Below, piece by piece: positions 22,702-24,189 of a stretch of DNA of 64,000 nt. The number at the start of each line of letters is the position of its first letter. Position 1 is the stretch's first letter. The position numbers were made by a program, and so were the translations under genes. Below the pieces are notes generated by a model that had not been told where the DNA came from, made no database searches, and saw only the letters and a program-made list of their open reading frames with translations. This stretch comes from Tribonema minus (Eukaryota; Sar; Xanthophyceae; Tribonematales; Tribonemataceae), in contig JAFCMP010000112.1 of assembly GCA_017506865.1 (NCBI GenBank), positions 1,364,001-1,428,000 of the forward strand, in the 5' to 3' direction.

Positions 22702-24189
22702 TTAATCTGCAATGCGCCCGTTGATGATAGAAAGGGCCACGCGCCGCCTAAAGTTGGCAATATCCGCCATGGTGTACGCGAGTGGGAGCTCGTCCATGAT
22801 GTGGTCGACCGCCATCAGGGCAAAATAACCACAGGCGCTTCCGTCACTCTGCTGCGGGGCATTGTCGCGGTGGTCGAAAAATGTCCAGCGGTGCGGGTAA
22901 TCGCAGCCGTATGCTTCGCGGAAGTAACGGTTCAGAAACGCCGCCACGACGTGCCAGGCGCTAGGGTTCCCCCACGCAGGACCGCTGTCGACGTACTCAA
23001 TGCGCCCCAGTTTAGGGTACACTACCATCGTTGCCCAGTGCATACCACTGCCCGGGACGAGGATACTTCCGCCGATGTTAAATGGCATGAGGATAGCGTC
23101 CATGGCGAAAATGTCAATAGGGGGGGCTCGCTTGGGGTTTGTGTACTTCCACACCAGTTTGTATTGCTCATTTTGTTGCTGTAAGGTTCCACTGTGCTTC
23201 AGCTTGGGGATGACAAAACAATTATACGCGTAGAAGCGGCGCGGACGGGAGGCTGTGATGCGCGCCGTCTCCCTTGCGTTTAGCATAGTCGTGTACGCGT
23301 TTATGATGTCGTCGTTTGCCCACTCGATCCCTGTCGTACGTTTGAGACTCTGCAGCGATACCACCGCGGCGAGGCTGGCATGAGCGACATTTTGCGCCTC
23401 GGGACTGCTCTCACTCATCGCCAGAACAGCATCAACGTGGAGCTCCTCGGCGGTTGTGAGTGGCATCTTGTGAATGTCCAGACGAGCGCGAACGCTGGCA
23501 GGTACAGTGGCGGGTGCCGTCATTCTCGTGATGGGCATGCCTGGAGGCGGTAGGGGGGCAATCCGGTCGAGGGCCTTTGCACACAACGCAGCGGCCTCTC
23601 GCTCACGTCTGATTATGACGTTGTCTACAATGCCACTGAGCACTCTGCCAGCCTCAGACCGACGCGCTTGTGTTTCAGCGGCCTCTTGCTCATGTCGAGT
23701 TGCGACTCTGTTCACAATGCCATTCAGCACATCGCTGGCCTCAGATCTGCAATTTGCGTCGGTGGCGGCCTCCTGCTCACGTTGAGCTGAACTGCGACGG
23801 CGAGGAGACCGCACTGGCGATATTGCCCTTGACGACGCTCGGGGAGAGCGCCGCCCGCTGGCTTTTACAGACAAAGTCGGCTCTGAAAATCCGTAAAGGG
23901 TCCGCCCCTGCCGCTTGAGCGCCAGCACAACATCCATGGATGTGACAGTCTTGCGCTTTGCATGCTCTGTGTAGGTAACCGAGTCTCTGATGATGTCCTC
24001 AAGAAAGACCTTTAGCACACCGCGAGTCTCCTCATAAATTAATCCAGAGATGCGCTTGACACCGCCGCGCCTCGCGAGGCGCCGAATGGCTGGTTTCGTG
24101 ATGCCGTTTATGTTGTCTCTAAGCACTTTTCGGTGGCGTTTCGCACCGCCCTTGCCAATTCCTCGACCTCCACCACCACGCCCTGTCAT
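22702..24189 (-). CDS. Histone H4 fused to an Ulp1/C48-type cysteine protease (495 aa)
   Basis: Residues 1-100 are a nearly unchanged histone H4 (RHRKVLRDN...[15 protein letters not shown]...[12 protein letters not shown]). In the tail, H4 Lys5 is Gly and Lys8 is Arg, while Arg3, Lys12, Lys16 and Lys20 are kept. A basic Ser/Arg/Pro linker and a helical segment (about 105-270) follow. The C-terminal domain is an Ulp1-like cysteine protease with the catalytic set visible: His about 384 (GMHWATMVV), Asp about 401 (YVDSG), Gln about 447 and Cys about 453 ([12 protein letters not shown]). This family removes SUMO or ubiquitin-like proteins, and in large viruses serves as a maturation protease. ATG 24189 is chosen because it starts the histone tail. 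I know of no such fusion, and recombination of two separate genes in assembly is excluded only by the continuous frame. Confidence 0.93.

Follow-up and report, generated by a model that had tools for sequence, protein, structure and literature searches.

The cellular proteases SENP1, SENP2 and Ulp1 (Peptidase C48) are not known to be fused to a core histone. Core histones residing within longer viral proteins are described in PMC11222145, e.g., the H2B-H2A and H4-H3 doublets of marseilleviruses and the histone repeats of other nucleocytoviruses. In addition, the H4 of bracoviruses enters host chromatin and the H3 of DSLPV1 carries an extra tail of 53 amino acids, as reported in the available part of PMC5769502, where an enzyme part is mentioned for neither. 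Among the viruses of algae, phaeoviruses infect brown algae, relatives of the class to which the present host belongs, and xanthoviruses are described as their sister clade (PMC13236599) and as known only from xanthophyte genomes (PMC12993054). For a different protist, PMC11244446 reports viral insertions without histones, showing that such genes are not a general trait of endogenous giant viruses.

The gene described here, found in the genome of the yellow-green (xanthophyte) alga Tribonema minus (assembly of 158 Mb in 554 contigs), resembles several of these systems and differs from each. Its protease shares the catalytic domain, the His-Asp-Gln-Cys order and spacing, and the fold of SENP1, SENP2 and Ulp1, yet it is joined to histone H4. 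While viral histone repeats link histone to histone, here a single histone is linked to an enzyme domain. MacroH2A, a core histone linked to a folded non-histone domain, likewise displays a histone-linker-domain order, but it is cellular, based on H2A, and its domain is not a protease. As in bracovirus H4 and DSLPV1 H3, the histone half is close to that of the host, yet it carries a C48 domain. Finally, the best viral fold matches of the protease are Ulp-like proteases of phaeoviruses (Feldmannia species virus B5LWN3 and B5LWM9, and FirrV-1-E3), compared by name and fold only, and their library names mention no histone.

Architecture and genomic setting of the H4-C48 gene

The window, i.e., the whole 64-kb stretch of DNA analysed, covers positions 1364001-1428000 of a 2.1-Mb contig (C112). 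Within it, the fusion gene is a single open frame of 495 codons, with the ATG at 24189 and the stop codon ending at 22702. The sequence-only reading had proposed one uninterrupted frame joining H4 to a C48-type protease with His, Asp, Gln and Cys in place; the coordinates proved exact, the strand is minus, and both domains and all four residues were recovered by PDB matches, Pfam and alignment. The parts are as follows:

22702..24189, minus strand: H4-C48 fusion gene, 495 amino acids (ORF translation and Pfam)
23887..24189, minus strand: histone H4 half, residues 1-101, with K5G, K8R and Y88L (PDB match and alignment)
23326..23886, minus strand: linker between the two domains, residues 102-288
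22726..23325, minus strand: Peptidase C48 catalytic domain, residues 289-488, SENP1-like (Pfam, PDB, profile and fold)
23038..23040, minus strand: codon of catalytic His384 (alignment)
22987..22989, minus strand: codon of catalytic Asp401 (alignment)
22849..22851, minus strand: codon of Gln447 (alignment)
22831..22833, minus strand: codon of the nucleophile Cys453 (alignment)

The H4 half has histone H4 as its best PDB match (E 9.2e-54, residues 1-102) and is the only histone domain that the Pfam scan places in the fusion. With 90% identity to the free H4 of the host, its earlier description as almost unchanged holds for most of the domain, but K5 is replaced by G, K8 by R and Y88 by L (K12, K16 and K20 are kept), and the linker takes the place of the C-terminal GG. 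Since approximately 390 further residues follow in frame, the protein has no free H4 C-terminus. The PF00125 cut-off is not reached by the H4 half (20.5 bits vs 26.4), yet this family is a poor test for H4, as the free H4 loci of the genome are likewise missing from the PF00125 list. Y88L is common to six of the eight fused H4 frames found in the genome (see below), and the other aligned H4 copies reaching position 88 carry Y, save one divergent copy with N. Together with the C-terminal extension, Y88L may weaken the contact with H2A-H2B.

The linker comprises 187 residues, beginning with a basic stretch that includes SP at 115, 124 and 128, followed by two 29-residue repeats (identity 16/29) and the beginning of a third. 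In the predicted structure, residues 134-209 are modelled as a single helix (pLDDT about 53-74). GG is absent from residues 102-288.

The protease half matches PF02902 at 52.5 bits (cut-off 20.7) over residues 289-488, which cover profile positions 1-209 of 217, and SENP1 in the PDB with an E of 1.6e-15, or 1.8e-45 in a profile search. His384, Asp401, Gln447 and Cys453 align to SENP1 and are invariant across the four fused C48 proteins of the genome, with 17 residues from His to Asp and six from Gln to Cys; Gln447 presumably has the oxyanion role. The segment WANDDIIN aligns with WLNDEIIN of SENP1, which we take to sit in the SUMO groove.

Structure prediction, proposed for both halves by the sequence-only reading, was informative for the protease and not for the histone. 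AlphaFold gave no confident model of the H4 half alone (mean pLDDT 46.4), and its confidence is low in the whole-chain model too. The latter, built from five sequences, has a mean pLDDT of 61.2 and a pTM of 0.56, with higher values in the C48 part, where 16 of the 21 ten-residue blocks in 281-490 are at a pLDDT of at least 70. Using Foldseek, SENP1 and SENP2 occupy ranks 1-11 for the C48 model (TM over target 0.85-0.88, E down to 4.3e-13). NEDD8 proteases come next (E 8e-8), other Ubl proteases are also significant, and pS273R of ASFV appears at rank 48 (E 7.4e-4). Among viral folds (BFVD), the phaeovirus Ulp-like proteases score best, and the adenovirus protease is found at rank 50 (E 0.079). 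In sequence, SENP1 and SENP2 are far better matches of the protease than other clan CE enzymes are, and they also lead the matches of the predicted fold. An adenain-like maturation protease was rejected as the closest type: none of the 27 PDB profile matches is adenain, and the acid is Asp401, not Glu. The analogy to the adenovirus protease drawn earlier is therefore weak. As for a possible substrate in the host, a PF11976 search for SUMO gave 35 matches in the genome, the best being tandem arrays resembling polyubiquitin.

The gene lies within a tight cluster of four genes on the same strand, encoding a 192-aa protein, a 252-aa protein, a kinase-like protein and H4-C48. The genes around the fusion, and three features further up the contig, are:

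21471..22565, minus strand: 364-aa gene downstream of the fusion, without a match in the Pfam scan
24242..25282, minus strand: kinase-like gene with Kdo/APH-type Pfam matches and an HGDxxxxNF motif, 52 bp upstream of the fusion
25307..26065, minus strand: 252-aa gene of the same-strand cluster
26047..26625, minus strand: 192-aa gene, with relatives on eight other contigs
C112:1104336: NCLDV capsid match (PF04451, 128.8 bits vs 34.8), about 260 kb before the window start
C112:1202477-1203112: H2B-H2A doublet in a 269-aa frame (L057), with two PF00125 matches and named by eye, about 162 kb before the window
C112:1310338: DNA polymerase B match (PF00136) in one 985-aa open frame, about 52 kb before the window

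The capsid, the H2B-H2A doublet, the polymerase and the window likely belong to one element, which is likely a member of the xanthovirus group; the viral-contig scan of IMG/VR gave no relative of the polymerase. Because a capsid match is present on the same contig, the fusion gene is probably viral and part of an endogenous nucleocytovirus, and the doublet raises the possibility that the element brings chromatin proteins of its own. Relatives of the 192-aa gene adjoin H4 fusions with a domain X, described below, in two cases, and capsid matches occur on four of the eight contigs carrying such relatives (C21, C90, C179 and C223). A free H4 and H3 pair, possibly viral, is also found on the contig (C112:993278-995434), and its H4 has a GC3 of 0.65, below the 0.83-0.88 of three other free H4 genes of the host.

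A scan of 31 ORFs from the window gave Pfam matches with E <= 0.001 for 14, some of them under the family cut-off. These include LAGLIDADG and GIY-YIG endonucleases, pieces of a strawberry-notch helicase, a glycosyltransferase and proteins rich in repeats; scanning another eight window ORFs (one a repeat) yielded nothing of use. The helicase domains lie in separate frames at 33663-36552 on the minus strand, i.e., in an intron-bearing or decayed gene. On the plus strand, a single 2408-aa frame at 12495-19721 matches SprB and fibronectin type III, and a short remnant at 5200-5280 corresponds to the C-terminus of a second C48 protease (profile E 1.2e-6). Also on the plus strand, positions 3368-4342 combine a SAP-like start (by eye) and an SPRA-rich basic linker with a kinase-like piece in a separate frame, which looks like a split DNA-binding kinase.

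Recurrence, selection and database coverage of the histone fusions

Searching the genome with the whole fusion gave 30 rows, 24 of them H4 loci when two pieces at C223:886k are counted once, with C1 and C257 left out of the inspection. Eight of the 24 lie in long open fused frames, and a ninth frame carries H3:

H4-C48 frames: the window, C223:465k and C9:47k
H4-kinase-like frames: C9:39k and C223:472k
H4-X frames (domain X): C445 (L029), C181 (L085) and C223:679k (L086)
H3-C48 frame, 608 aa: C223:1009k (H3 152.3 bits, C48 88.8 bits)

These nine open frames represent six lineages, three of them as near-duplicate pairs; histones of at least two kinds and three partner domains took part. The C48 domain is matched 20 times in the genome, four times with a histone N-terminal to it in the same frame, i.e., more often than by chance, and no histone accompanies the C48 match in 15 further frames inspected by eye, with L075 left out. 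The kinase label of the H4-kinase frames comes from PF00069 matches below the cut-off (E 0.006-0.008), and a single comparison with the kinase-like gene of the window shows a distant likeness (E 2e-5). In the H4-X frames, a proline-rich linker precedes domain X, in which H255, E272, Q313 and C334 are conserved (numbering of the L029 piece). By eye, this His-Glu-Gln-Cys order presumably resembles that of clan CE viral proteases. Domain X has no match in Pfam, the PDB profile search (best E 1.4) or IMG/VR, and no homologue within the window; its profile comparison with the C48 set gave a probability of 0.2%. At C490, H4 and X-like parts adjoin, with an in-frame TGA. Support regarding a single versus multiple origin of the H4 fusions was 45/91. 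A different arrangement is seen at C223:809575-809952 (L048), where a histone H3 lies within a 574-aa open frame and is followed by a glycine-rich extension.

In the alignment, the N-tail is mostly absent or shorter in other histone fusions, and the helices keep their sequence. As the fold is retained and the tail is not, we infer that the histone fold serves as an anchor.

The H4-C48 pair of C223 and C9 displays a synonymous excess (Fisher p 1.3e-15), with dN/dS at 0.20 for the whole gene (dN 0.057, dS 0.281), 0.07 for the H4 part (dN 0.010, dS 0.135), 0.27 for the linker (dN 0.125, dS 0.457) and 0.19 for the C48 part (dN 0.063, dS 0.322). No indels are found in its 1128 coding bases, as opposed to 17 in 1329 bases of the 3' flank, 12 of which are not a multiple of three; the contrast concerns the 3' flank only, as the 5' flank, mostly another open frame, also has none. 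The three coding indels of the H4-X pair are each a multiple of three (p 2.7e-16), and the members of the H4-kinase pair are almost identical (p 0.004). Codon comparison places both halves of the C223/C9 genes under purifying selection; this was measured on these relatives, and the gene of the window was compared over its H4 half only. This selection may date from viral replication that preceded integration. An assembly or frame accident was rejected in view of the divergent copies.

Compared with the host H4, the H4 of the window has a pS of 0.74, near synonymous saturation, a dN of 0.084 and a nucleotide identity of 74%. Its GC3 is 0.58, with 0.57 in the linker and 0.70 in the C48 half. Other window genes range from 0.54 to 0.59 in eight of nine cases (one at 0.68), and three host H4 copies from 0.83 to 0.88. 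A recent capture of the present-day host H4 was rejected on account of the identity, pS and differing GC3. Since a near-saturated pS is coupled to a low dN and a GC3 like that of the window, an H4-like protein was apparently kept over a long residence, which is read as residence in a virus.

The sequence-only reading knew of no such fusion, and among the matches listed from the protein database, IMG/VR and the literature, none was found outside the Tribonema minus genome. With the whole fusion as query, no PF02902 was present among the best 120 of 1396 matches (7937 candidates scored), two of which contain several H4 stretches each; the listed matches score at least 359 bits and one H4 about 186, so a lone H4-C48 could fall below them. 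Better tests are the protease region alone, which matched none of 2426 candidates, and the C48 profile, which matched five of 7335 (in both cases proteins sharing short words), namely four from Tribonema minus and one of 358 aa in which no histone was matched. Scans of IMG/VR by short exact peptide patterns, in line with the search of metagenomic giant viruses suggested earlier, gave nothing related to the fusion, to the C48 or H4 sets, to domain X or to the polymerase. No histone-enzyme fusion is described in the literature matches listed, and histone H4, Ulp1 and giant virus combined gave no paper.

The database proteins begin inside the protease half, covering 133 of 495 residues for the window (P0125), 239 of 608 for P0121, and 174 of 376 for P0122 and P0123; separate protease transcripts are therefore possible. 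The 133-residue entry is unlikely to be a true gene, since it starts within the catalytic domain and lacks its first part, while the 239-residue entry could be a genuine separate start.

Proposed function and alternative explanations

The sequence-only reading had suggested that the histone part could put the protease into viral chromatin, either to cut packaged proteins or to remove SUMO. Both a viral setting and placement in chromatin fit the evidence, and the SENP1/SENP2-like sequence and predicted fold favour SUMO removal. Going beyond the architecture, recurrence, constraint and protease family observed, H4-C48 would be made from a single mRNA, and its H4 half would pair with H3 and be built into nucleosomes on viral DNA, host DNA or both. 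The linker would then hold the protease against the surface of the nucleosome, where it could remove SUMO from nearby chromatin proteins and thus counter SUMO-dependent silencing of the virus. The fusion would, in this case, be a chromatin-tethered SUMO protease of an endogenous giant virus and one of a set using a core histone as anchor for other domains. Confidence in the whole mechanism is evenly divided; much greater certainty attaches to the fusion being a genuine gene, shaped by selection and probably derived from a virus. Falling just short of even is the broader proposal that this virus lineage evolved nucleosome-embedded enzymes, in which H4 (perhaps repeatedly) and H3 were fused to SUMO protease, kinase-like and X domains, so that histone deposition would deliver the enzymes through viral or host chromatin. 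Domain X is a possible member of this class, given its possible His-Glu-Gln-Cys protease motif, noted by eye.

Alternatively, the fusion may be a virion maturation protease, whose histone is packaged with the viral DNA and carries the protease into the particle core, where core or capsid proteins would be cut as by adenain or pS273R. Clan CE proteases are used for maturation by large DNA viruses, pS273R is a weak fold match, and phaeoviruses encode the Ulp-like proteases that match best among viral folds. The element may also provide its own chromatin proteins, as seen from the H2B-H2A doublet, and the core histones of Medusavirus are reported to have been found in its virions. However, the sequence is much nearer to SENP1 and SENP2 than to viral maturation proteases, and the linker without GG offers no obvious release site of the Ulp or pS273R type. 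C48 is, moreover, fused to two different histones, and H4 has a kinase-like partner as well, which suggests a general chromatin anchor. The maturation role is considered unlikely.

The histone itself could also be the active part, replacing host H4 and altering host chromatin, with the enzyme being secondary. The near-canonical, strongly conserved H4 half is consistent with such a decoy, and PMC5769502 describes the H4 of bracoviruses as a competitor of the host's own H4 for chromatin. Yet a decoy has no need of the C48 half, which is conserved too and has an intact catalytic set, and this role is considered improbable. Slightly less probable again is domestication, in which the alga now uses the fusion, e.g., for silencing viral copies. 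The frame is intact in the host genome, while other parts of the window hold the C48 remnant, the split kinase-like gene and the helicase pieces, but the GC3 and the closely packed neighbours on the same strand have a viral character, and several divergent copies reside on contigs with capsid matches. Least probable is a chance fusion or decaying relic without function as a single protein: the region is partly decayed and the database entries span protease pieces only, yet the fusions recur across six lineages that have diverged, and the H4-C48 pair is under purifying selection, both of which speak against it.

The roles known for viral histones are the packaging of DNA and competition with the histones of the host. 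If the proposal of a chromatin-tethered SUMO protease is true, catalysis would be positioned in chromatin by a novel route, through an enzyme borne on a conserved histone fold. Histone-enzyme fusions of this kind can be absent from the database entries for proteins of endogenous viruses. The sister copies with other domains suggest that these viruses used histones as anchors for chromatin enzymes, and the question of whether integrated giant viruses leave latency through SUMO removal is made testable.
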